Assembly: GCA_902579545.1 (NCBI GenBank)
Contig: CACHHO010000010.1
Span: forward strand, 1 to 36,985
Length of the DNA stretch: 36,985 bases
DNA from: Rhodospirillaceae bacterium
Lineage (GTDB): Bacteria; Pseudomonadota; Alphaproteobacteria; TMED109
Direction: 5' to 3'
In this document: in pieces, positions 15,461 to 32,679 of the stretch
Layout: each line of letters begins with the position of its first letter
How positions within the stretch are numbered: position 1 is the stretch's first letter
Program-made: the position numbers and the translations under genes
The notes under the pieces: generated by a model
What the model saw: the letters and a program-made list of their open reading frames with translations, nothing else
Databases searched by the model: none
What the model was told of the DNA's origin: nothing

Positions 15461-17647
15461 TTAATTATTAATTATTGGAAATAGCAAGCTAACCTTAGCT
15501 CCTATACCATTTGCATTATTTTCCAATTCAATACTTCCCTTATGATCTTCCATAATCTTTTTTACAACTGCTAAGCCTAAACCTGATCCTTTTTTAGACC
15601 TTGATATATATGGTTCTGTTAAAAATTCTTTATCTTTTGGTAATCCTTTACCATTATCTATTATAATAAGTTTACAATAGTTTTTATCTTCAGTTAATTC
15701 TATATCTATTATTCCTTTGTAGTCTTTTAAATTATTATAATTTTTTTCATTAATTGAATTTATAGAATTTTGAATCAAATTGTTGAATGCTTGATTTATT
15801 AGGTTTGGGTCAGCTCTAAGTTTTATATCATTTGTTTTAGATAAATCACTTTTTATTAATATTTCTTTATTTGCTAGTTTAGTCATACTTACAAAGCTAT
15901 TAATCAATGTATTAATCTTAACAGACTCAAATATAGGTCTAGGCATCTTTGCAAATGTTGAAAAATCATTTACCATTCTATGAATTGAAGATACTTGTCT
16001 AATAATTGTATCAATACAATTTATAAATATTTCTTTATCTTTTTTAATGCTACTTAAATACTTGTGTTTTAATCTATCTGCAGACAGCTGAATAGGAGTT
16101 AATGGATTTTTTATTTCATGTGCAATTCTTCTAGCAATATCAGACCATGCAGCAGATCTTTGGATTTTAATTAAATCAGTAATATTCTCTATGGTAATCA
16201 CATAACCAGAATTTAGATTCTTATTATTTTCAAATGATATTCCAATAATAAAGATATATTTTTTTCCTTTTATAAAATATTCGATTTGCTTTTCTTTATA
16301 TTGCATTTCTGATGCTCTAATAGTAGATATAAAACTTTAATTGAGGGAAAGTATCGTAAACACTAAATCCTATTAATTTACTTGCATCTATATTTAATAA
16401 CTCTAAGGCAGACTTATTAACTAAAAATATTTTATCATCAGTTGATACTCCTAATACTCCTGACTTTACTCCAGTAAGAATTGACTCTGTAAACCTTCTT
16501 CTATTGTCAATTTGTTGATTTGCTGTAACCAAATCTTCTCTTTGGTCGTCAAGCTGTTTTATCATATTATTAAAGCTTAAAATAAGTTTATAAATTTCAT
16601 TATTTTTATTAATATTAGCTTCAATATTGAATTTTAGGTTACCATCACTAACTTTTTCAGATGCTTCAATCAATTTAGCAATTGGATAAGTGATAGAATT
16701 TGCAAACTTGATTCCTAACCAGACTGCTAGCAGAAGTAGTAGTATTGCAACTGATATAAAAACCATAGTAAAAGTAATTCTGCTGCCTGTGCTTTCCTTT
16801 TTTGCTAAATTATAATCATTTATTGCTTCTTTTACGCTTTTAAGATTGTAAATTATAATAGGATCTAAATATCTACTAAAATATAAGTATAAGCCAATAT
16901 GCCCTATAATAGGCGTAATTACATTAATTCTATTATTGTCAGTTTCTAGATAGACTATAGGAGAATCTACGTTGTTCATTTGTGAAAAAAATCTCAGCAG
17001 GAGATATATTGTTGGGCAAAAAATAACTATTTCTAGAAGCAAAAAGTATATTACCATTTGAAGCAATGACAGCTAGTTCGTTTGCACCTCTTTCTAAAGA
17101 CAGATTATTTAGCAGAAAATCTATTTTAGATTTATTTTTATAATTAATTTCTGAAATTTGAGATAGCCTTAAGGCTATAAAAAGAATATCTCCTTCAATT
17201 CTTTTTTTTAGTCTCAATGGTATAATTTTCAGCTATTGCTGCAGATTTTTCTAGAGCAGTTGATACCCTTTTACTAAACCATCCCTGTATACCTTTTTCG
17301 AAAAAAATTACTGCAAATATAGCTACTATTAAAACTGGAGTAATAGCTACAGAAGCGAAGACACCTATTATATTTTTTTGTAAGTTGGATCCAGCAGTAT
17401 TTGTTTTTAAATTTCTAAGTAAGGATATAACTTCATTAATAATTAATATAAATAAAATAAAAAAAGAAATAAGTCCTAAAAGCAGAAAAAGTAAAATTAA
17501 TTTTGGATTACTATCGGCAGAATTGTATATAGAATAAAGAGTACCTAATGCTGTAATAAAGGTAAATACACTAATAAAAATAAGCAAATACATCTTTAGA
17601 TTTTTATTCAAAAATACTTTTTTTGATATATTAATAGACTTCAACAT
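15461..17647 (-). CDS. ntrY: Sensor histidine kinase NtrY, reading frame broken three times
   Basis: A membrane sensor kinase for NtrX. Order of parts: three hydrophobic segments in the first 110 residues, a periplasmic portion, another membrane segment (MVFISVAILLLLLAVWLG), HAMP, PAS (TGVKSGVLGVSTDDKIFLVN) and kinase domains with the phospho-acceptor His in RRIAHEIKNPLTP, N box NLIQNS, G1 IDNGKGLP and G2 GSGLGLAVV. It is split into four open frames (17195-17647, 16939-17217, 16317-17066, 15461-16306). Each junction is repaired by removing one base from an A/T run: T8 at 17202-17209, A7 at 16985-16991, A4 at 16331-16334. The rebuilt product is about 725 residues, the normal size. It starts three bases after ntrC. 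Confidence 0.87.
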
Positions 17648-20138: not shown

Positions 20139-21325
20139 ATGAAAAATAAAAGAAATAAAAGTTTAGCTGTAATAATTCTTGCGTCTGGAAGTGGAGTTCG
20201 CATGAAAAACAATATACCAAAGCAGTATTTAAAAATAAGAAAAAAAACACTATTGGAAGAGAATATAATAAAATTTTCTAGTTTAAATATAGTAAAAAAA
20301 TTAATTGTAGTTGTTAACTATAAACATAAAAAATATTTTAATAGCGTTAAGGAAAATTATAAAAAAATTAGCTTTATTTTCGGTTCAAAAACACGCCAAG
20401 AGTCCTGTTATAAAGGTCTGAAGTATTTAGAAAAAGATCCTTACACATATGTATTTGTGCATGACGCTTCAAGGCCCTTTATTTCTCAAGAATTGATAAA
20501 GAACTTATATAAAAAAATATTAATAAAAAAAAGTGCTGTAATACCTGTAATAGCCATTAATGATAGTATAAAAAAGTGTTAATAATAATATTGTTTTAGA
20601 TAGTTTAGATAGGAAAAAAATATATTTATCCCAAACACCTCAAATTTTTAACTATAAATTACTATTAAATGCCTATAAATTAAATAAAAACAAACTAGAG
20701 CAATTTACAGATGATGCACAAATTTTTTTCACTTACTTCAAACAAAGTTTTTACTATAAAAGGGTCCATTGATAATATAAAAGTCACTACTAAACAACAA
20801 TGGGAGATGCTAAGAAAAATGACGACTAAAGAATATGAGATAAAAATAGGACAAGGTTTTGATACACATAAGTTAGTAAAAGGAAGAAATATAGTATTAT
20901 TTGGGCTAAAAATTCCATCAACTTATTCTTTATTAGGACATTCAGATGCAGATGTTGGAATTCATTCTATCATTGACGCATTATTGGGTTCATTAGCACT
21001 TGGAGATATAGGCATACATTTTCCTAATACTAAAAAAAAATATAAAGGAATTAGTTCATTATTAATGCTACAAAAAGTAAACGAACTTATAAGCTCTAAT
21101 TATGCAGAAATATCACATATTGACTGTACCTTAATAGGAGAGAAGCCAAAAATTTCTAAATATTCTAATAAAATGAGAAACTTATTGGCAAAAACACTAA
21201 AAATACCTGTAAAAAATATATCTATTAAAGCTACTACTACAGAAGGTCTTGGTTTCACGGGTAGATTAGAAGGCATTTCTTGTAGTTGTACTGCCACAGT
21301 AAAAAAATACATTAAAAATGAATGA
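20139..21325 (+). CDS. ispDF: Bifunctional IspD/IspF isoprenoid enzyme, reading frame broken twice
   Basis: Catalyses two steps of the MEP isoprenoid pathway: MEP cytidylyltransferase (IspD, to about base 20820) and MECDP synthase (IspF). IspD motifs: LASGSGVRMKNNIPKQY, HDASRPF, SQTPQIF, FTDDA and GSIDNIKVTT. IspF motifs: GQGFDTHKL, LLGHSDADVGIHSIIDALLGS, GDIGIHFP and ATTTEGLGFTGRLEG. Fusion of the two is typical of alphaproteobacteria. The open frames are 20139-20582 and 20711-21325; the part between (bases 20577-20722) encodes clear IspD sequence in a third frame. Removing one base from A6 at 20570-20575 and one from T7 at 20723-20729 rebuilds a continuous protein of about 395 residues. Essential function makes real inactivation unlikely. 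Confidence 0.88.
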
Positions 21326-21794: not shown

Positions 21795-22265
21795 AAATTT
21801 AATAGATTTATGTATTAAGAATAATTTTACCATAAGTTTAGCTGAGTCCTGTACAGGTGGCATGATTGCCTCAAATTTAATCTCAATATCAGGAGCATCA
21901 AAAGTAATTGATTTTGGTTTAGTCACTTATTCTAATAATTCAAAAAAAAAAATTATTAAATATTCCTAAAATGAAAATTAATAAATACGGCGCAGTAAGT
22001 CAAGAAATTGCTCAATTCATGGTAGAAGGCTTACTTAAAAAAACTGATTCTAATATACTCATTGGAGTTACAGGAATAGCAGGGCCAAACGGTGGAACAC
22101 ATGAAAAACCTGTAGGATTAGTATATCATAGCTTTTACTTTAGAGAAAATAATGAATTAATTATCAAAAAAAAACTTTTTTAATGGTAATAGGACAAATA
22201 TAAGAAAAGATGCATCAAATTTTACAGTAGAGTTTATTTACAAAAAGTTAATATCATTTATATAG
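21778..22265 (+). CDS. cinA: CinA C-terminal domain amidohydrolase (NMN deamidase type), reading frame broken twice
   Basis: A stand-alone CinA C-terminal domain, known as nicotinamide-mononucleotide deamidase (PncC) in NAD recycling. Motifs: LAESCTGGMIAS, FGLVTYSN, KYGAVSQEIA, GVTGIAGPNGGTHEKPVGLVY. The frame is lost at A11 (21942-21952) and again in the A9-C-T6 tract (22166-22181). Removing one base at each restores a protein of about 161 residues ending at the TAG at 22263-22265, including the KKLLNIPKMKI link and the FNGNRTNIRKDA segment expected near the C terminus. It overlaps the convergent COQ10-like gene by 12 bases. Confidence 0.85.
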
Positions 22266-22688
22266 TTCTTTAGCTCTTCTTTCAAATGCATCTAACATTT
22301 TTATAGTTGCTCTTTTAAATAAACTTCCCATAATTTTTTCTAAGAAAAAAGACTTAAATTTATATTGTATGAAAAAGTCTACTTTGCAATTATTTTTATC
22401 AATATCATTAAAAGTCCAGGTGCTTTTAAGAAGTTTAAAAGGCCCAGATATTGCTTCTGAGTTAATTTCTTTATTTGTTATAGCATTAATTCTACTGACA
22501 TATTTTTCATCTAAAGCTTTATAACCTACAGATAATTCTGCATTAAAATTTGTATTGCTTATTTTTTCTATGATTCTTGAAGATGTACACCACGGTAAAA
22601 AAAGAGGATAACTTTCCACATCTATAACTATATCAAATAATTGCTTTGATGAATTTTTCATAATTATAGTATTTTTATAATTATTCAC
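22254..22688 (-). CDS. COQ10/RatA-like START-domain protein (coenzyme Q-binding)
   Basis: A 144-residue START-like polyketide-cyclase family protein of the COQ10/RatA type. Signature regions are [11 protein letters not shown] (usual form YPxFLPWC), [14 protein letters not shown] and [14 protein letters not shown]. Alphaproteobacterial members lie next to lipA and are linked to ubiquinone function, which fits the respiratory context here. A role as the E. coli RatA toxin is not supported. It overlaps lipA by eight bases and is the last gene of the long minus-strand run. Confidence 0.87.
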
Positions 22689-23604
22689 GTGTTTTTCTTA
22701 GTTTTTTAAAATCTTGATCAGCATGATATGAAGACCTAGTCAAAGGAGAACTAGAAACCATTGAAAAGCCTTTATTCCAAGCAATTTTTTCAAAATTTTT
22801 GAATTCATCTGGACTATAATATTTTATTAATTTTTGATGTAGTAGTGAAGGCTGTAAATATTGACCTATTGTAATAAAATCAACATTATTTGCTCTCATA
22901 TCATCCATTACTTCTATTATTTCCTCAAATTTTTCTCCTAAACCCAGCATAATTCCTGACTTTGTCCAAATCTTTCTATTAAGTTTTTTAATATTATTTA
23001 AAATATTTAAGCTATGTTTATAATTTGCCCCTTTTCTTATTTCTTTATACAGCCTAGGTACTGTTTCTAAATTATGATTAAATACATCAGGGTTTGCTTC
23101 AGAAATAATACTCAAAGCATTTTTTTTTCTTTGAAAATCTGGCACTAAAATTTCTATTGTGACATTTTTATCTAATCTTCTAATTTCACTTATACAATTA
23201 AAAAAATGTTTAGCTCCTCCGTCTTCTAAGTCATCTCTGTCTACTGAAGTTATAACAACATGATTTAGATTAAGTTTAGCTATAGCTAATGCAATTTTTT
23301 TAGGTTCCTCTGTATTAACTTTTTGCGGAAGTCCAGTAGATATATTACAAAAAGTACACTTTCTAGTACATACTCTACCTAAAATCATAATAGTTACGTG
23401 CTTTTCTTTCCAACATTCACCAATATTTGGACATGCAGCTTCTTGACAAACTGTATTAAGATTTAAAGAATTAATAAGTTTTTTTGAACTAAGATAGCCA
23501 GAAGAAACAGGTGCTTTAACCTTTATCCAATTTGGTCTTACAAGCTTGTTTTTAATCTTGTTATTCAAGTGTGACTTAGATATATAAGAAATATTTTTAT
23601 TCAT
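22681..23604 (-). CDS. lipA: Lipoyl synthase
   Basis: A radical SAM enzyme that inserts two sulfurs into octanoyl groups on lipoyl domains. Both iron-sulfur sites are visible: auxiliary cluster cysteines C53, C58 and C64 ([12 protein letters not shown]) and the radical SAM triad C79, C83 and C86 (CTRKCTFC). The final conserved serine lies in LTRSSYHAD. The 307-residue length is normal. It sits directly downstream of the pyruvate dehydrogenase genes (one-base overlap with lpdA), and its product matures the E2 subunit PdhC. Confidence 0.97.
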
Positions 23605-24998
23605 TATATATGTATTGCTTTATCAAAAGCGTTTAGTACAGATTCATGTATTGACTCAGATAATGTTGGATGAGGGAAAACAGTATTAATTATATCTTCC
23701 TCCGTAGCCTCTAATTTTATAGCTAGCGAAAATGTATTTATTAACTCTGTGACCTCTGCCCCAATCATATGTGCTCCTAGTATTTCACCTGTTTCATTAT
23801 CGAATATGGTTTTAATAAACCCTTCAGGCTCTCCTAAGGCAAGCGCTTTACCATTAGCAGACAATGGGAAAACCCCTATTCTTATATTTTTCTTTAAAGC
23901 CTTAGCCTTATTTTCAGTTATTCCTATAGATGCAACTTGAGGATTAGTATAAATACAGGACGGGATTAAGGTATTATTATGATATTTCTTTATTTTTTTA
24001 TTATCAAACATATATTCTACACATACTATACCTTCATGACTAGCCTTATGAGCCAACCATGGCAAACCAGCTACATCTCCTATAGCAAAAATATTTGGTT
24101 CATCTGTTTTATTATAATCATGAGTAATTATCTGATTATTTTTAACTTTAATTTTAGTATTTTCTATACCTAAATTTTCAATATTTCCTACAACACCCAC
24201 TGCTACCAATACTCTATCAAATAAAAAGGTTTTGTTTTCTGAGTTATTTAATCCAGTTAATTCATACTCTTTATTTTTAACTAGTTTAACTACATCAGTT
24301 TTTTTATGAAATATAATTCCTTTATTAGACATATTTTTTTCCAATTCTTTTGATATATCATGATCTTCATTAGGAGCAATTTTGTCTTGAAGTTCAAATA
24401 CTTCTACTTTAGTGCCAAGAGAATTAAAAAAACTGGCAAACTCTAAACCAATTGCACCTGAACCTACAATACCCAATTTATTTGGTAAAGAATCAGGAAG
24501 CAAAGCTTTTTTATAATCCCAAACATCATTTTTTAAATTTTTAAAAAAAGGTAAAACTCTAGGGCTGGCTCCAGTAGCTATTATAATCTTATCAGTTTTA
24601 ATTTGCTCATTATTATTATCATTTGTAATCTCAATAAGATGCTTTTCTTTTATATAGGCAGTTCCTTTTTTTAAAGTAATAGAATTCTTTTTAAATAAAA
24701 ACTCTATACCAGAAGATAATTTATTAGAAACTTTTCGTGATCTTTTTACCATTTCTTCTAAAGAAAAATTATTGTTTCCTTCTAATCCATATAATTTACC
24801 ATTTTTTGCATGTGTAAGAATTTCTGAAGACCTAAGTAAAGCTTTTGTAGGAATACATCCCCAATTTAAACAAATACCTCCGAGTTCACTTTTCTCGACA
24901 ACAAGCACATTTTTATTTAATTGAGCAGCCCTAATAGCTGCAACATAACCACCTGGCCCAGAGCCAATAATTGTTATATCATAATCAAATTTACTCAT
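23604..24998 (-). CDS. lpdA: Dihydrolipoyl dehydrogenase (E3)
   Basis: A flavoprotein that reoxidises the dihydrolipoyl arm of PdhC with NAD+. Features in the 464-residue protein: the FAD-binding [10 protein letters not shown] motif, the redox disulfide C43-C48 ([13 protein letters not shown]), the NAD-binding [13 protein letters not shown] motif, the second FAD motif [10 protein letters not shown], and the C-terminal HPHPTLSE with the catalytic His. It overlaps pdhC and lipA by one base each. It may also serve other 2-oxoacid complexes. Confidence 0.97.
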
Positions 24999-26296
24999 TA
25001 TAAAATCATTGCAGTTGGATTAGTTATATAAAAATTAAAATACTTTAAGAGTTTAGATGCTGTTGCCCCATCTACTATTCTATGGTCAACAGAAAGTGTA
25101 TAAGAGACAGTTTTACATAATTTAATTTCTTTGTTTTCAACTATAACATCCTCTATTATGCTCCCTAAAGCAATTATTCCTGATTGTGGAGGGTTAATAA
25201 TTGCAGAAAATTCATTAATGTCATACATTCCTAAATTAGATAATGAAAATGATCCGCCATTATAATCTTCTGGGAGCAACTTGCCTTCTTTTGCTTTTGT
25301 AGCTAAAGCTTTCATTTCCATTGAAATTACAGACAAGCTCTTTTTACAAGCACTTTTTATAATAGGTGTGAATAAACCTTCTTCTGTAGCAACGGCAATG
25401 CTTATATCAACTTCTTTAAATTTACTAATAGTCCCATCTCCATTCCAAATAGCATTCATTTCAGGGACATTTTTTAACGATAATGCAATAGCTTTAATAA
25501 AGAAGTCATTAAAACTAATTTTTAAATTTATATTTTCATCTTGGTAAAATGAGTTAATATTTTTTCTTTCATTAAATAATGAATTAACAACTACCTTACC
25601 TTTTAAGTAAAAATGAGGAACAGTAGATTTTGCTTCTTGAAGTCTTGATGCAATTGTTTTTCTAATATTAGATAGTTTTAATATTGTTACTTCATTATTT
25701 AAGCTAAACTTTTCTTTTGAATTAGCTTTTTCAACATTATTAATTTTATTTTCTAAATCTTTTTTTACTATTCTACCCTTAGGGCCACTACCATTAATAT
25801 TAGATATATCTATATTTTCTAAATCAGCAATTCTTCTGGCTAAAGGAGAAATTAATTTTCTCTTATTTTTACTAATATTATTATCAATATCTGTCGTGTT
25901 ATGTTCCTCCATAATATTTTGTGACGGTTTAATTGTGTCTTCTGTAGAGTTATTATCAGCTTTAATAGTATCTATTCCTTTAGCATCAGAAGTATCAGAA
26001 GAGCTAATGCTTTTATAATTCTTTATAAAATTTTTTATATCATCATCACTATCTTCTTCTAAAGAAATAACTCCTATTAATTCATTAACTGACACATTTT
26101 CCGAACCCTCTGGATACAATATAGAAGCAAGTTTTCCCTCGTCTACTGCTTCAACTTCCATTGTTGCTTTATCAGTCTCTACTTCAGCTATGACATCACC
26201 AGAAACTATATTATCTCCCTCAGATTTTAACCATTTCGCAATATTGCCTTCAGTCATAGTAGGAGAAAGTGCTGGCATTAATAGTGCTATAGGCAT
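24998..26296 (-). CDS. pdhC: Pyruvate dehydrogenase E2, dihydrolipoamide acetyltransferase
   Basis: The core acetyltransferase of the pyruvate dehydrogenase complex. Domain order: one lipoyl domain with the lipoylated K43 (VETDKATMEVEA), a polar Ser/Asp/Asn-rich linker (about 80-145), a peripheral-subunit-binding domain (SPLARRIADLENIDISNI, then GSGPKGRIVKKD), and a catalytic domain ending in SVDHRIVDGA with the catalytic His. At 432 residues it has the normal single-lipoyl layout. A GAGGA ribosome binding site precedes the ATG. pdhB lies 19 bases upstream. Confidence 0.97.
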   Translation of the reverse strand: MPIALLMPALSPTMTEGNIAKWLKSEGDNIVSGDVIAEVETDKATMEVEAVDEGKLASILYPEGSENVSVNELIGVISLEEDSDDDIKNFIKNYKSISSSDTSDAKGIDTIKADNNSTEDTIKPSQNIMEEHNTTDIDNNISKNKRKLISPLARRIADLENIDISNINGSGPKGRIVKKDLENKINNVEKANSKEKFSLNNEVTILKLSNIRKTIASRLQEAKSTVPHFYLKGKVVVNSLFNERKNINSFYQDENINLKISFNDFFIKAIALSLKNVPEMNAIWNGDGTISKFKEVDISIAVATEEGLFTPIIKSACKKSLSVISMEMKALATKAKEGKLLPEDYNGGSFSLSNLGMYDINEFSAIINPPQSGIIALGSIIEDVIVENKEIKLCKTVSYTLSVDHRIVDGATASKLLKYFNFYITNPTAMIL

Positions 26297-26315
26297 GAAT
26301 ATATCCTCACAATCA

Positions 26316-27290
26316 TTATAAACAAATATCCAAACATTTTTTTATTATTTCGTCAGAATTTGGCAAAGAATTTTTTTCTAAATTCTCTGCATAAGGCAAC
26401 GGTACTTCTTTACCACAGAACCTTATAGGTTCAGCATCTAAATAATCAAAAGCATTTTCTATTATAATAGATAAAACTTCTGATGCCACTCCAGATTGCT
26501 TCCAAGCTTCTTCAATAATAATTACTTTATTTGTTTTTTTTACAGATTTTATTATAGTATTTTTATCAAGAGGCTTTAAAGATCTTAAATTTATTACCTC
26601 TGCATATATATTTTTATCTTTTAAAGTATTTGCTACTTTTAATGCTGTTTCCACTGCTCTAGAGTATGCAATTATAGTAATATCACTACCATCTAACATA
26701 ATTCTAGCCTTTCCAATATTTAAGTATTCATTGTTTTCTTCTAATATAAACTTTTCATTGTACATTAATTCATGTTCGAGAAATATTACAGGATTAGCAT
26801 CTCTTATTGCAGATTTCATTAAACAATATGCATCCGAGGAGTCAAAAGGCGATAAAACTTTTAATCCAGGAACATGAGAATACCATGCTGAATAATCTTG
26901 GCTATGTTGTGCAGCTACTCTCGAGGCTCTTCCATTTGGGCCTCTGAATACAATAGGTATATTAATTTTACCTCCACTCATATAAAACGTTTTAGCAGCA
27001 GAATTTATTATATGATCTATAGCTTGCATAGCAAAATTCCAAGTCATGAACTCTACTAAAGGTTTTAATCCTTTCATAGCCGCCCCTACAGCAAGACCGG
27101 TAAAGCCAGCTTCAGTAATAGGCGTATCTACTATTCTATCAGGACCAAATTCATCTAGTAGTCCTTGACTAACCTTATATGCACCTTCGTATTCTCCTAC
27201 CTCTTCTCCTATTAAAAAGACCTTATTGTTTTGTCTCATTTCATGAGCAATAGCATCTCTAATTGCTTCTCTGACTGCAATAGCGCTCAT
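26316..27290 (-). CDS. pdhB: Pyruvate dehydrogenase E1 beta subunit
   Basis: The beta subunit of the thiamine-diphosphate-dependent E1, which forms an alpha2-beta2 tetramer with PdhA. Motifs: GEEVGEYEGAYKVSQGL, DTPITEAGFTGLAVGAAM, EFMTWNFAMQAIDHI, and IIEEAWKQSGVASEV in the transketolase C-terminal domain. At 324 residues it lacks the extra N-terminal lipoyl domain found on PdhB in many alphaproteobacteria. It overlaps pdhA by four bases. Confidence 0.97.
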   Translation of the reverse strand: MSAIAVREAIRDAIAHEMRQNNKVFLIGEEVGEYEGAYKVSQGLLDEFGPDRIVDTPITEAGFTGLAVGAAMKGLKPLVEFMTWNFAMQAIDHIINSAAKTFYMSGGKINIPIVFRGPNGRASRVAAQHSQDYSAWYSHVPGLKVLSPFDSSDAYCLMKSAIRDANPVIFLEHELMYNEKFILEENNEYLNIGKARIMLDGSDITIIAYSRAVETALKVANTLKDKNIYAEVINLRSLKPLDKNTIIKSVKKTNKVIIIEEAWKQSGVASEVLSIIIENAFDYLDAEPIRFCGKEVPLPYAENLEKNSLPNSDEIIKKCLDICL

Positions 27291-28579
27291 GGCAGTCTAT
27301 CCTTTGAATAATAAACATCCTCATAAAGTGTATCTTCATCAGGTAAAGGCATTTCTCTAGCTTTATCAGATGCAACCAGAACTTCATCCTTTATTTTTTT
27401 ATCTAAATTTTTAACTTCTATTTCATTCATAAATTCATTTTTAAGCAAAAATGATCTAACTCTCTCTATAGGGTCTCTATTATCTCTAGTTTCTTGAATT
27501 TCTTGTCTAGTTCTATATTTTCCAGGATCAGACATAGAATGACCTCTATACCGATATGTTTTTGCCTCAATAAGCACAGGTCCTAAATTTTCTTTTGCTA
27601 CTTTATTATATATATTTTTTAAATGATAATTTACTGCTAAAGGGTCCATCCCATCAATTTCATATCCTTTAATTCCAAAAGACTCTCCTCTTCTAAATAG
27701 TTCAGTCATTGCACTAGCTCTTTCTACAGATGTACCCATACCATATTGATTGTTTTCGATGATATAGATTATAGGTAGATTCCAAAGAGCTGCCATATTA
27801 AAGGCTTCATATACTTGTCCTTGATTTACAGCTCCGTCGCCAAAAAAGCAAAATGTAATTGCATTATTTTTTAAATATTTATTTGCAAAAGCAATACCTG
27901 TTCCTAGGGGCACTTGCGCCCCTACTATTCCATGTCCACCGTAAAAATTATTTTCTGATCTAAATAGATGCATAGATCCACCTTTTCCTTTAGATGATCC
28001 ATCTTTTTTACCTAGTAACTCACAAAAAATATTTAATAAGGGCTCACCTCTAGAAACCATGTGTGCATGACATCTATAACCTGTAATAAAACAATCTTTA
28101 TTATTAGCAATACTTTCTATGCCAGCAATAACACCTTCTTGTCCAATATATAAGTGACAGAAGCCACCAATCATACCCATGCTATATAGTTGTCCTACTT
28201 TTTCTTCAAACCTTCTAATTCGCATCATTAGTTTGTAAATTTTAATGCAAGTTTCTTTATCTACACTAAAGTCTATGTTTTCATCATTAGTTTTAAGAAC
28301 TTTTGACTCAGAAAATATCTGGATTGAATTGTTTGCAGATGTTAAGTTTTCACTGCTAATACCTGGAAGTAATAATTTATTATAGTCTCTTATATTGTGA
28401 TTATCTTCTAGTAAACATCTAGCTACTGCTACTTTCCATCTATCTGGAATTCCTTGCCTAACCCATGAATAAACAGTTTTTTCATTTATTAGTTCAGATG
28501 TTAGTTTCTTTAATCGGGCAGTTAATTTTTTTCCTCCACCTAATTTTTTGATGATATCACTACATTCTAAATTCTGCAT
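27287..28579 (-). CDS. pdhA: Pyruvate dehydrogenase E1 alpha with an N-terminal helix-turn-helix-like domain
   Basis: The E1 alpha subunit decarboxylates pyruvate using thiamine diphosphate. The core (from about residue 109) is complete: RRFEEKVGQLYSMG, GFCHLYIGQE, KGKGGSMHLF, the ThDP motif GDGAVNQG with ENNQYGMGT, and the HSMSDPGKYRTR loop. The protein is 430 residues; the family is usually 320-350. The extra N terminus (about 5-56) reads DIIKKLGGGKKLTARL, then TVYSWVRQGIPDRWKVAVARCL, which resembles the small Cro/YdaS-like helix-turn-helix proteins of proteobacteria (ALGG, VxxWxxRGIPxRW pattern). A polar linker (57-108) joins the two, in one open frame. It starts six bases after a strong -10 box, with no ribosome binding site, so the mRNA is likely leaderless. 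Inference: it may be an autoregulatory enzyme; protein-protein contact is an alternative. Confidence 0.93.
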   Translation of the reverse strand: MQNLECSDIIKKLGGGKKLTARLKKLTSELINEKTVYSWVRQGIPDRWKVAVARCLLEDNHNIRDYNKLLLPGISSENLTSANNSIQIFSESKVLKTNDENIDFSVDKETCIKIYKLMMRIRRFEEKVGQLYSMGMIGGFCHLYIGQEGVIAGIESIANNKDCFITGYRCHAHMVSRGEPLLNIFCELLGKKDGSSKGKGGSMHLFRSENNFYGGHGIVGAQVPLGTGIAFANKYLKNNAITFCFFGDGAVNQGQVYEAFNMAALWNLPIIYIIENNQYGMGTSVERASAMTELFRRGESFGIKGYEIDGMDPLAVNYHLKNIYNKVAKENLGPVLIEAKTYRYRGHSMSDPGKYRTRQEIQETRDNRDPIERVRSFLLKNEFMNEIEVKNLDKKIKDEVLVASDKAREMPLPDEDTLYEDVYYSKDRLP

Positions 28580-28585
28580 AATATA

Positions 28586-28614
28586 ACTATATGTTAAAAA
28601 TCATAAATTGTCAA
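28586..28614 (-). promoter_or_regulatory. Near-consensus sigma70 promoter of pdhA (predicted leaderless)
   Basis: On the minus strand TTGACA (28609-28614) matches the -35 consensus exactly, the spacer is 17 bases and TATAGT (28586-28591) is one base from TATAAT. Only six bases separate the -10 box from the ATG at 28579, so transcription should begin at or within a base or two of the start codon. No Shine-Dalgarno can exist in such a short leader. Confidence 0.75.
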
Positions 28615-28616
28615 TA

Positions 28617-28645
28617 AATTCTATATTATATAGAATTAAAATTCT
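28617..28645 (-). promoter_or_regulatory. Inverted-repeat operator candidate upstream of pdhA
   Basis: AATTCTATA (28617-28625) and TATAGAATT (28629-28637) are perfect 9-base inverted arms around a 3-base centre. A further AATTCT (28640-28645) forms a second palindrome with AGAATT (28632-28637). The dyad ends two bases upstream of the -35 box. No T-run follows, so it is not a terminator for ftsB. Symmetry suits a dimeric regulator, possibly the PdhA N-terminal domain itself (inference). Confidence 0.55.
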
Positions 28646-28657
28646 TTTTATGATAGA

Positions 28658-28942
28658 TTATTTTAATATTATATTATAAGCATTTTTTTCAGTTCCACCA
28701 TATAGATCTAATGCTTTTTCTTCTAAGTAATCAAGATCTATAGCATTAGGATCTAGTAGTTTTATTTTCTCTTTATACTTAATAATTTTATTTTCTAATA
28801 AATTTTGGTAGGTTTGCTGATTATTTAAAGTTTTTTTCTTTTCTACGTAAGCATTTATTCCATTATCAAAACCTATTAAATGATAAACTAGATAGGAAAT
28901 AGGTAAAATTGATAATATTAGAAAGAATTTAATTTTAAACAC
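28658..28942 (-). CDS. ftsB: FtsB/DivIC-like septum formation initiator
   Basis: A small bitopic division protein: a short N terminus, one membrane segment (about residues 5-24, FFLILSILPISYLVYHLIG), a lysine/glutamine-rich coiled coil, and a C-terminal PNAIDLDYLEEKALDLYG motif typical of the alphaproteobacterial FtsB family. Start choice: an ATG at 28960 gives 100 residues but has no ribosome binding site, while the GTG at 28940-28942 is nine bases after AGGAG (28952-28956). I prefer the GTG (94 residues). The eno-ftsB-pdhA order is conserved in alphaproteobacteria. It overlaps the eno stop. Confidence 0.82.
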   Translation of the reverse strand: MFKIKFFLILSILPISYLVYHLIGFDNGINAYVEKKKTLNNQQTYQNLLENKIIKYKEKIKLLDPNAIDLDYLEEKALDLYGGTEKNAYNIILK

Positions 28943-30206
28943 AAAAATATTCTCCTGCATAATTTAAATTTTTATTATTTTTTTCTATATATATAAGTCT
29001 ATTGTATTTAGCTCCCCTTTCTGATCTAGCTACAGAACCAGTTTTTATTAATCTTGAATTACTGCCTACAGATAAATCTGCTATAAAAGTATCTTCTGTC
29101 TCACCAGACCTGTGAGAGATTATATTTTCTATTTTATTAGATTGAGCTAGGTTAATAGTGTCTAATGTTTCTGTAAGAGATCCTATCTGATTTAGCTTTA
29201 TCAAAATAGAGTTAGCTGCATTTTTAGATATACCATATTCTAATCTTCTTTTATTAGTAACAAACAAGTCATCACCTACAATTAATGTTTTTTTTCCTAA
29301 ATTTGAATTTAACTCTGTCCACCCATTCCAATCATCTTCTGAACAACCATCTTCTATAGAAAATATGGGATACTTTTTAGTTATATCCTTCAAATAAGAC
29401 ACCATTTCTTTACTATTTAATTCTTTTTTATTGGAATCTAAAAAGTATTTTTTATTTTTATAGAACTCTGACGATGCTATGTCCAAGGATATTAGAACTT
29501 GTTTTTCCGGATTAAGTTTTGATTTTTTTATTGCTTTTATTAAATATTCTAAAGGTTCATAGTTATTTTTAAAATTTGGAGCGAAGCCTCCCTCATCTCC
29601 TACTGAGGTTGAGTAATTATTTTTTTTTAATATGTCTTTAAGATTAAAAAAAATCTCTGAACACCAACTTATTGCCTCTGAAAAACTTTTTGCTCCAACT
29701 GGTGCCAGCATATATTCTTGTATATCTAAGTTATTTATAGCATGAGCACCACCATTAATTACATTAACAAGAGGTACAGGCATATAGTTGGTATTTATAC
29801 CTCCTAAGTATTTATATAATTCAATATTTTCACTTTTAGATGCTGCTTTTGCAACAGCAAGACTCACTGATAGAATAGTATTAGCCCCCAATTTTTTTTT
29901 ATTTTTAGTTCCATCTAAGTCTATTAATAACTTATCAATATTTTTTTGATCCTTAACATCTAGACCTTGGAGGCTATCCAAAATAATTGACTTTATTAGC
30001 TCTATATTATTCAAAACTCCCTTACCCATATACCTTTTAAGATCTTTATCTCTTAATTCTAATGCTTCATAGATCCCTGTAGATGCACCAGAAGGGACTG
30101 CTGCTTTGCCGGAAATACCATTACTTAAAATAACTTCAGTAAGAAGTGTTGGAATGCCTCTGCTATCGATTATTTCATATGATTTTATATTTTCTATATA
30201 ACTCAT
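28935..30206 (-). CDS. eno: Enolase
   Basis: Converts 2-phosphoglycerate to phosphoenolpyruvate in glycolysis. The 423-residue protein has GKAAVPSGASTG (substrate loop), VGDEGGFAPNF, SIEDGCSEDDW and GDDLFVTN (magnesium ligands), the catalytic lysine region ILIKLNQIG and the SHRSGETED signature. It overlaps kdsA by four bases and ftsB by eight, inside the long minus-strand block. Together with tpiA and pdhABC it puts lower glycolysis and pyruvate oxidation in one gene cluster. Confidence 0.98.
   Translation of the reverse strand: MSYIENIKSYEIIDSRGIPTLLTEVILSNGISGKAAVPSGASTGIYEALELRDKDLKRYMGKGVLNNIELIKSIILDSLQGLDVKDQKNIDKLLIDLDGTKNKKKLGANTILSVSLAVAKAASKSENIELYKYLGGINTNYMPVPLVNVINGGAHAINNLDIQEYMLAPVGAKSFSEAISWCSEIFFNLKDILKKNNYSTSVGDEGGFAPNFKNNYEPLEYLIKAIKKSKLNPEKQVLISLDIASSEFYKNKKYFLDSNKKELNSKEMVSYLKDITKKYPIFSIEDGCSEDDWNGWTELNSNLGKKTLIVGDDLFVTNKRRLEYGISKNAANSILIKLNQIGSLTETLDTINLAQSNKIENIISHRSGETEDTFIADLSVGSNSRLIKTGSVARSERGAKYNRLIYIEKNNKNLNYAGEYFCV
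28952..28956 (-). promoter_or_regulatory. Ribosome binding site deciding the ftsB start
   Basis: AGGAG lies nine bases before the GTG at 28942 and inside the alternative reading that begins with ATG at 28960. It favours the shorter GTG-initiated FtsB. Confidence 0.6.
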
Positions 30207-31030
30207 TGTTTTACTATATCATCAATTTGCTTAAGTTTTATTAATAAATTTCTTAAATTTTTAATATCTAGCATATTTGGCCCATCACTGGGAGCATTAT
30301 CAGGATCTTGATGAGTTTCAATAAATATTCCTGAAACACCTGTAGCTATGGAAGCTTTTGCTAAGCAAGGCACAAACTCCCTTTGCCCTCCTGACTTATC
30401 TCCTTTACCACCAGGTTGTTGAACTGAATGAGTGACATCAAATATCACTGGCCATCCTGTTTTTTTCATAATAGGTATAGATCTCATATCTGATACTAAA
30501 TTATTATAGCCAAATGAAGTTCCTCTCTCACATAATAAAATATTATCAGCTCCAGCTGATACTAATTTTTTAATTATATTAGACATTTCCCAGGGAGCTA
30601 AAAACTGCCCTTTTTTAACCATGACAGCTTTATCTGTTTTTGCAGCGGCTATTAACAAATCAGTTTGTCTGCATAAAAATGCAGGTATTTGTATTACATC
30701 TACAATAGTCATAACTTCTTTACATTGTTCTTTTTCATGTACATCAGTAATAATATTTATCTTTAAGCTATTTTTTAAATACTCAAAAATCTTTAACCCT
30801 TCATCTAAACCTACACCTCTTTTACTATTAATACTTGTTCTATTAGCTTTATCAAATGATGACTTATAAATAAATTGTATATTTAGTTCTTCACAAATGC
30901 TTTTTATTGAAGAAGCCATATCAATTGCATGTTCTTTGCTTTCTATGGCACAAGGACCAGCAATCAAAACAAAAGGACTATTATTACTTATTTCAATATT
31001 ATTTAAGTATAATTTCTTTTGATCACTCAT
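30203..31030 (-). CDS. kdsA: 3-deoxy-8-phosphooctulonate synthase (KDO-8-phosphate synthase)
   Basis: Condenses arabinose-5-phosphate with phosphoenolpyruvate to make KDO-8-phosphate for lipopolysaccharide. The 275-residue TIM barrel has LIAGPCAIES, KSSFDKANRTS, the GVGLDEGLKI segment, QIPAFLCRQTDLL, and IFDVTHSVQQPGG. Its presence indicates that the cell makes LPS with KDO. It overlaps pyrG by eight bases and eno by four. Confidence 0.98.
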   Translation of the reverse strand: MSDQKKLYLNNIEISNNSPFVLIAGPCAIESKEHAIDMASSIKSICEELNIQFIYKSSFDKANRTSINSKRGVGLDEGLKIFEYLKNSLKINIITDVHEKEQCKEVMTIVDVIQIPAFLCRQTDLLIAAAKTDKAVMVKKGQFLAPWEMSNIIKKLVSAGADNILLCERGTSFGYNNLVSDMRSIPIMKKTGWPVIFDVTHSVQQPGGKGDKSGGQREFVPCLAKASIATGVSGIFIETHQDPDNAPSDGPNMLDIKNLRNLLIKLKQIDDIVKQ

Positions 31031-32679
31031 TGTTTTTCTTCTTTTCTAAGCTTGCTTCAATAAAAGAATTAAATACCGGATGAGGATTAAGAGGTTGTGA
31101 AGTCAATTCCGGATGGAATTGCACACCTAAAAACCAGGGATGATTTGTTAATTCAATTATTTCAGGTAATTTTCCATCAGGCGATCTGCCAGATATTATC
31201 AAACCATTTTTTTTAAATAGTTTTTCATAATTTATATTCATTTCAAACCTATGCCTATGTCTTTCATTTATAATATTCTTTTTATAAACACTCTTAGCTA
31301 AAGTAAAGTTATTAATTTTACATTTGTAACTGCCTAGACGCATTGACCCACCATAATCTGAATTAACACTTCTTTTTATAAATTTATTTCCTTTTTTCCA
31401 TTCGGTCATTAAACCAATAATATTTTCTGAATTTTTTATACTAAATTCACTAGAACTAGCATTTTTTAACCCAACAACATTTCGTGCATATTCAATAACA
31501 GCTAATTGCATGCCAAAACATATACCTAAAAAAGGTATTTTTTCTTCTCTTGCATATTTAATAAATTTAATTTTTCCATTTATTCCTCTTTTTCCAAAAC
31601 CACCAGGCACTAAAATGCCATTTAAATCCATAAAATTAGGTTTTTTATTAAGAGATTTTTCAGAGTCAATCCATTTAATATTTATCTTAGCAAAATTTCT
31701 AATTCCACTGTGAGAAAGTGCTTCAATAAGTGACTTATAAGCATCTTTTAATTGAATATACTTTCCTATAATTCCAATATTAACTGAATATTTTGGCTTG
31801 CTTTTGATTAAGCTTATTTTATTCCAACTTATTAGATTAGCTTTGTTTTTTGACTTTATATTAAAGCTCTCTAATACTCTACTATCTAATCCTTCTGCAT
31901 TTAAGAACGTTGGTAATTCATAAATACTATCCACATCTACAGCTTGAATTATATTTTTTATATTAATATTGCAGAATAAAGCTATTTTATTTTTATCAGA
32001 GTTAGAAATTTTTCTCTCACATCTACATATGAGAATATTTGGCTGTATTCCTATTTCTCTTAATTCTTTGACGGAATGCTGAGTGGGTTTAGTTTTTTGT
32101 TCATCTGCAGCTGTTAGATATGGAACTAATGTCAAATGTAAAAAAAATAGATTGATGTCTTTGTAGCTCATTGCTTAACTGTCTAATAGCTTCTAAGAAA
32201 GGTAGACTTTCTATGTCCCCGACTGTACCACCTACTTCCACTATTAAAAAGTCTACTTTTTTTAAACTTAAGCATATACTTTTTTTAATCTCATTAGTAA
32301 CATGAGGAATAACTTGAACTGTTTTGCCTAAATATTTTCCTTTGCGCTCATTATTAATTACATTTTGATAAACTCTACCTGCAGTTATATTATCATTTTT
32401 AGTTGCATTAACTCCTGTAAACCTCTCATAGTGACCTAAGTCTAAATCAGTTTCTGCACCATCATTTGTAACAAAAACTTCTCCATGCTGATTAGGATTC
32501 ATTGTTCCTGGGTCAACATTTAGATAAGGATCAAGCTTTCTTAACTTAACTTTGTATCCTCTTGATTGCAGAATAGCAGCTAATGATGCAGCAGTAAGAC
32601 CTTTACCAAGAGAAGAAACAACTCCTCCGGTTATAAAAATAATTTTTGTTTTAAAATTAGTTAACTTTGATATAACAAT
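31023..32679 (-). CDS. pyrG: CTP synthase, reading frame broken once, no canonical start codon
   Basis: Converts UTP to CTP with glutamine as amide donor. N-terminal synthetase domain: [54 protein letters not shown]-terminal glutamine amidotransferase domain: [10 protein letters not shown] (catalytic Cys), RHRHRFEMN and VQFHPELTS. The frame is lost at an A8 run (plus strand 32140-32147); removing one base joins [12 protein letters not shown] to LHLTLVPYL as the family requires. Upstream of the conserved ATG at 32502 another 59 codons of obvious CTP synthase sequence follow the secG stop, but no in-frame ATG, GTG or TTG exists there. ATT (32679) or ATA (32673, nine bases after GGAG) is the likely initiator unless a base is wrong. 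About 552 residues when rebuilt. Confidence 0.87.

Follow-up and report, generated by a model that had tools for sequence, protein, structure and literature searches.

A helix-turn-helix domain on pyruvate dehydrogenase E1 alpha and operator-like repeats in its own promoter suggest a self-regulating enzyme

The window, the whole 36,985-nucleotide stretch of DNA analysed, comes from a marine alphaproteobacterial family with AT-rich DNA; TMED109 and MarineAlpha9_Bin3 are among its named members (background in PMC8879329). Its pdhA gene (27287..28579, minus strand) encodes a 430-residue E1 alpha subunit of pyruvate dehydrogenase (PDH) that carries an N-terminal helix-turn-helix (HTH) domain. Residues 108-423 match TIGR03182 with 456.8 bits (cut-off, 393.85), which places the product among the E1 alpha subunits; about 100 residues precede this part, and the small HTH-like domain lies within them. 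Five genes follow in the same direction: pdhB, pdhC, lpd, lipA, and a RatA-like gene (22254..27290, minus strand; gene names read from the sequences). Because ORF coordinates show overlaps or gaps of at most about 20 nt throughout, pdhA and these five genes likely form one operon. On its other side, pdhA is preceded by a co-directional ftsB/DivIC-like gene (28658..28960, minus strand; Pfam DivIC) that ends 78 nt before it.

Elsewhere in the window, pyrG (31023-32502), an ispD/ispF pair (20139-21325), and an NtrY-like kinase gene (15461-17217) each appear split into separate or overlapping ORFs, which suggests frameshifts or sequencing errors. The window's genome (G000) also contains a second, divergent enolase gene (G000:C57:13-1227), whose product is 41% identical to the enolase encoded next to pdhA; several relatives have one too. 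The closest match to the window's MetG is in the same-genus genome G002. Both pdhA and the adjoining enolase gene are missing from all five same-genus genomes (G001-G005), probably through incomplete assemblies, although gene loss may also account for it.

Read along the minus strand, the region upstream of pdhA is AGAATTTTAATTCTATATAATATAGAATTTA-TTGACA-17-TATAGT-TATATT-ATG. The −35 box (28609..28614), the −10 box (28586..28591), and the ATG start codon (28577..28579), all on the minus strand (read as 28614-28609, 28591-28586, and 28579-28577), are arranged exactly as the original prediction had described, with a 17-nt spacer and 6 nt between the −10 box and the ATG. This promoter matches the consensus at 11 of 12 positions. 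Gene-start and operator statistics for G000 cover about 0.7 Mb (698 kb) of 1.24 Mb; in a scan for promoters whose −10 box ends 5-8 nt before a start codon, pdhA ranks first of 574 gene starts with 12.2 bits, the next scoring 8.7. Since promoters this close to the start codon are in only slight excess genome-wide, leaderless-type starts are a minority in this genome.

The arrangement recurs in all 13 fused pdhA genes: a −35 box (TTGAC(A/T) or TTTACA) and a −10-like hexamer (TAnnnT in most of them) are separated by 16-17 nt, and the start codon comes 6-7 nt further on. (G017 scores slightly better in an alternative reading, where the spacer is 18 nt and the distance to the start 8 nt.) No Shine-Dalgarno sequence precedes any of the 13, so that every fused genome combines this geometry with the lack of a ribosome-binding motif of that kind. 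An earlier start is possible in just one of these genes, at a single TTG in G008, and in the window no other start codon lies between the in-frame stop and the ATG. Given the promoter geometry, the missing Shine-Dalgarno, and the missing earlier starts, the natural reading is that the transcript starts at, or one to two bases from, the start codon (the A of the ATG being the predicted first base), and so is leaderless or nearly so. The leaderless start proposed originally is thus supported by comparison with relatives. The accompanying idea, that such initiation would change how the enzyme is translated under stress, finds no support: Caulobacter, an alphaproteobacterium mapped in detail, has 375 leaderless mRNAs that are translated as efficiently as other mRNAs during normal growth, and hence no stress role follows for pdhA (PMC4117421). 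What pdhA is predicted from its sequence to share with alphaproteobacterial leaderless mRNAs is the gap between −10 box and start codon, which is roughly one start-site distance long.

The HTH domain occupies residues 1-62 (28394..28579, minus strand). Across 12 family members, little or nothing varies in its best conserved stretch, NEKTVYSW..QG.PD.WK, which is expected to comprise the turn and recognition helix; over the whole domain, identity between clades is about 35-44% (12 sequences). All 12 N-terminal domains scanned match the carph-isopro profile NF046037 at E<=0.01. The window's copy does so over residues 7-54, with 27.4 bits (E about 3e-6), short of the 38 bits set as curated cut-off; in the genome search, G016 (39.4) and G022 (38.2) exceed that cut-off, G016 scoring 35.3 as a whole protein. 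AlphaFold2 returns a confident four-helix model for the domain (mean pLDDT 86.8); a first model that included the linker was poor. Foldseek matches this fold mostly to DNA-bound POU-specific and phage CI domains, with TM scores up to 0.72 and no E-value below 1. A PDB sequence search with the HTH alignment gave only weak, unrelated matches.

Thirteen genomes from genera g1-g6 encode the HTH-E1 alpha fusion; it is lacking in seven genomes of g8 and in all other class relatives sampled. (Of the carph-isopro matches in g8, the one inspected, L180, resembled an unrelated HTH.) In a tree of E1 domains, the fused sequences all fall on one side of a branch with 100/100 support and split into two clades: A, with eight genomes (g5, g2, and g4); and B, with five (g1, g6, and g3), including the window's. 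Each clade has its own operator-like pattern at the pdhA promoter, and the seven unfused g8 relatives have none of the features of either.

In the window, the candidate operator is a palindrome, AATTCTATA-taa-TATAGAATT (28617..28637, minus strand), with 9-base arms around 3 bases, spanning positions −58 to −38 relative to the start codon and lying just upstream of the −35 box. Within it is a 17-bp core, TTCTAT-N5-ATAGAA (28619-28635). A third half-site, AGAAT (28641..28645, minus strand), stands exactly 5 bp from the core, and the AGAATT at 28640-28645 builds a second palindrome with the dyad, AGAATT-tt-AATTCT. Both the dyad and the overlapping palindrome had been noted beforehand, and both are correct to the base. 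The five clade B genomes share the pattern (A/T)GAAT-N5-TTCTAT-N5-ATAGAAT, with fixed spacing and at the same place upstream of the −35 box. Its core 6-bp arms are perfect in four genomes (g1 and g6) and degenerate in g3 (G007), at a constant position relative to the −35 box; the third half-site keeps its 5-bp distance in all five, reading TGAAT in G010. The G, C, and G that mark the three half-sites are invariant amid variable AT-rich sequence, the G of the third half-site (dyad column −9) in five of five genomes. Across both strands of 698 kb of G000, the three-half-site form occurs once, at pdhA, even when the G007 variant is allowed.

Clade A is without this dyad and has instead two direct TATTCTnTA half-sites exactly 21 bp, or two helical turns, apart: one within the promoter spacer; the other extending into the start codon. 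(The upstream copy begins with A or T.) The exact double repeat is present at the pdhA promoter in seven of the eight genomes, with one mismatch in the eighth, and these genomes together hold just one further exact copy elsewhere. From −35 to −1, 24 of 35 columns are invariant, versus 1 of 35 just upstream (Fisher p 5e-9); with the two promoter hexamers left out, the figure is 14 of 23 (p 1e-6). A coding explanation for this conservation was rejected because third codon positions are fixed while some middle ones vary, and because several genomes have in-frame stops. The substitution pattern thus indicates that the constraint is at the DNA level. The dyad had been expected in relatives that share the fusion. 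Operator-like pdhA repeats do occur only with the fusion, but the dyad itself is confined to the five nearest genomes, the other eight having direct repeats whose half-site resembles that of the dyad.

A profile search with the HTH domain finds it in another alphaproteobacterial family (that of G076), at the N terminus of HisZ, the regulatory subunit of ATP phosphoribosyltransferase (loci L229, L231, and L233-L247; gene order in G076, hisS-hisZ-hisG). These domains match carph-isopro NF046037 and, weakly, P22 Cro and YdaS. The promoters of all 15 full-length hisZ genes contain two TTCATAnnnTATGAA-type palindromes (TTCATA-N3-TATGAA) at a spacing of exactly 39 bp. One palindrome, degenerate in G076, precedes a −35-like TTGATT; the other lies over the −10 region. 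In most HTH-HisZ genomes these are the only exact copies, and three genomes without a full hisZ have zero. Because several of the 15 genes are near-identical, they do not represent fifteen independent events. Even so, two unrelated proteins, PdhA and HisZ, each combine this HTH domain with a putative private operator in the promoter of their own gene.

The domain also begins a HemX/mitofilin-like membrane protein encoded behind hemC-hemD in genus g5 (L045:2078-3226, L046:1707-2861, L047:2460-2858, and L191:1397-2533). No private operator is evident in this hemC-hemD-hemX cluster, the region upstream of hemC included.

Sequence-level evidence, namely the fusion with its promoter and operator and the conservation of all three together, underlies the reading that we favor: HTH-E1 alpha is quite probably an autoregulatory enzyme with PutA-like logic, binding TTCTnTA-type half-sites in the promoter of its own PDH operon. 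The autoregulatory loop suggested by the original prediction gains support from the invariant recognition-helix region, the pdhA repeats seen only with the fusion, and the independent HisZ fusion with its private palindromes. The locus displays two features of a trigger enzyme, a concept described in PMC6245113: an enzyme and a predicted DNA-binding domain in one chain; and conserved, operator-like sites in its own promoter. Several considerations temper this reading. The window's HTH falls short of the curated carph-isopro score, and its structural matches lack significant E-values. The operator is laid out differently in the two clades, with inverted half-sites in B and direct ones in A, and is degenerate in G007; its half-sites are short and AT-rich. 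Moreover, PDH E1 usually resides in a large complex, which could hold the HTH off DNA.

A mechanism can be outlined. The Cro/CI-like HTH on E1 alpha would bind the operator half-sites and so make the PDH operon self-regulating. E1 of the pdhA type is normally alpha2beta2, so each particle would present two HTH heads. E1 outside the complex would bind the operator and block RNA polymerase, tying synthesis to the amount of free enzyme; that the free rather than the complex-bound form is regulatory is a guess. The sign of regulation is likelier to be repression than activation, because in clade A and in the HisZ parallel the −10 region or the start is overlain by the sites. Activation by the fused enzyme in the window's clade is rather unlikely: the dyad at −58 to −38 does sit where activators can, yet a promoter with 11 of 12 consensus positions should need little help.

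Might the repeats instead be the operator of a different, unlinked transcription factor, with the HTH-like domain of E1 alpha serving, for example, docking in the PDH complex? It is consistent with such a role that E1 subunits often assemble via N-terminal segments, and that the carph-isopro score of the window's HTH does not reach the curated threshold. Operator and fusion, however, share genomes, and both are missing in the unfused g8 relatives; the recognition region is the best conserved part of the domain; and the HisZ-fused HTH, too, has a private operator pair in front of it that is nearly unique in the genome. Several targets would normally be expected of an unlinked factor, yet exact and near-exact searches with the operator patterns over the family yielded no recurrent second target, and a promoter-plus-half-site pattern loosened to 3 mismatches was no commoner than its reversed control. 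We consider this explanation improbable.

That the dyad is a chance AT-rich palindrome beside an ordinary promoter is much less probable still. By itself, the dyad is indeed unremarkable in DNA this AT-rich: perfect arms of at least 9 bases are found in 8 of 574 gene upstream regions of the window's genome (1.4%) and in 2.7% of shuffled versions of the same 78 nt, and G000 has just one other exact dyad, an identical 17-mer on contig C7, within a coding sequence that G005 shares. It is conservation across relatives that makes the dyad convincing. Position, spacing, and third half-site are kept in related genera, the three-half-site form is unique in 698 kb, and the sister-clade repeats are conserved as well; this comparative evidence is decisive. 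Least probable of all is that the dyad belongs to the upstream eno-ftsB unit as a terminator or RNA hairpin, a reading prompted by its position between ftsB and pdhA and by an RNA fold of −5.2 kcal/mol, and rejected because a terminator scan found no intrinsic terminator between the two genes, the fold z-scores are just −1.6 and −0.9, and the direct repeats of the sister clade form no hairpin.

A self-regulating HTH-E1 alpha may exemplify a broader tendency. On balance we lean toward the view that small-genome alphaproteobacteria have repeatedly swapped stand-alone regulators for one small Cro-like HTH domain fused directly to metabolic proteins (PdhA, HisZ, and perhaps the HemX-like protein), PdhA and HisZ each having a private operator in its own promoter; the results would be single-target, self-regulating enzymes made from leaderless or nearly leaderless transcripts. 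If so, the enzyme that gates entry to the TCA cycle, pyruvate dehydrogenase, would regulate itself, and bacteria with small genomes and few transcription factors could retain feedback control by placing a DNA-binding head on the enzyme. Because HisZ supplies a second, independent case whose operator is very clean, such a rule is directly testable.

How does this arrangement compare with known systems? Our literature search was of limited coverage, such that absence proves little; it returned no paper naming carph-isopro and none describing an HTH fused to E1 or HisZ. PDH in gammaproteobacteria is regulated by PdhR, of the GntR family. Control of a PDH operon is the point of likeness; PdhR is a separate protein of an unrelated family, and no Pfam match to a GntR winged-helix domain was found at the present locus. 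PDH components are also said to contact promoter DNA elsewhere, as HTH-E1 alpha is predicted to do: the Azotobacter E1 reportedly binds at the fpr promoter, and the Bacillus thuringiensis E2 reportedly binds protoxin promoters. To our knowledge, neither has a dedicated fused HTH or targets its own gene. In contrast to carph-isopro (NF046037) and Cro/YdaS-type HTH proteins, the pdhA domain is fused to a catalytic subunit, and the window's copy falls below the family cut-off.

The nearest parallels are trigger enzymes: PutA, a proline dehydrogenase with an N-terminal ribbon-helix-helix repressor; and BirA, a biotin ligase with an N-terminal HTH repressor. Like them, HTH-E1 alpha is a metabolic enzyme with a DNA-binding domain, and control of its own operon is what we infer for pdhA. 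What sets it apart is its catalytic part, PDH E1 alpha; its DNA-binding domain, a carph-isopro/Cro-like HTH; and an operator apparently confined to its own promoter.
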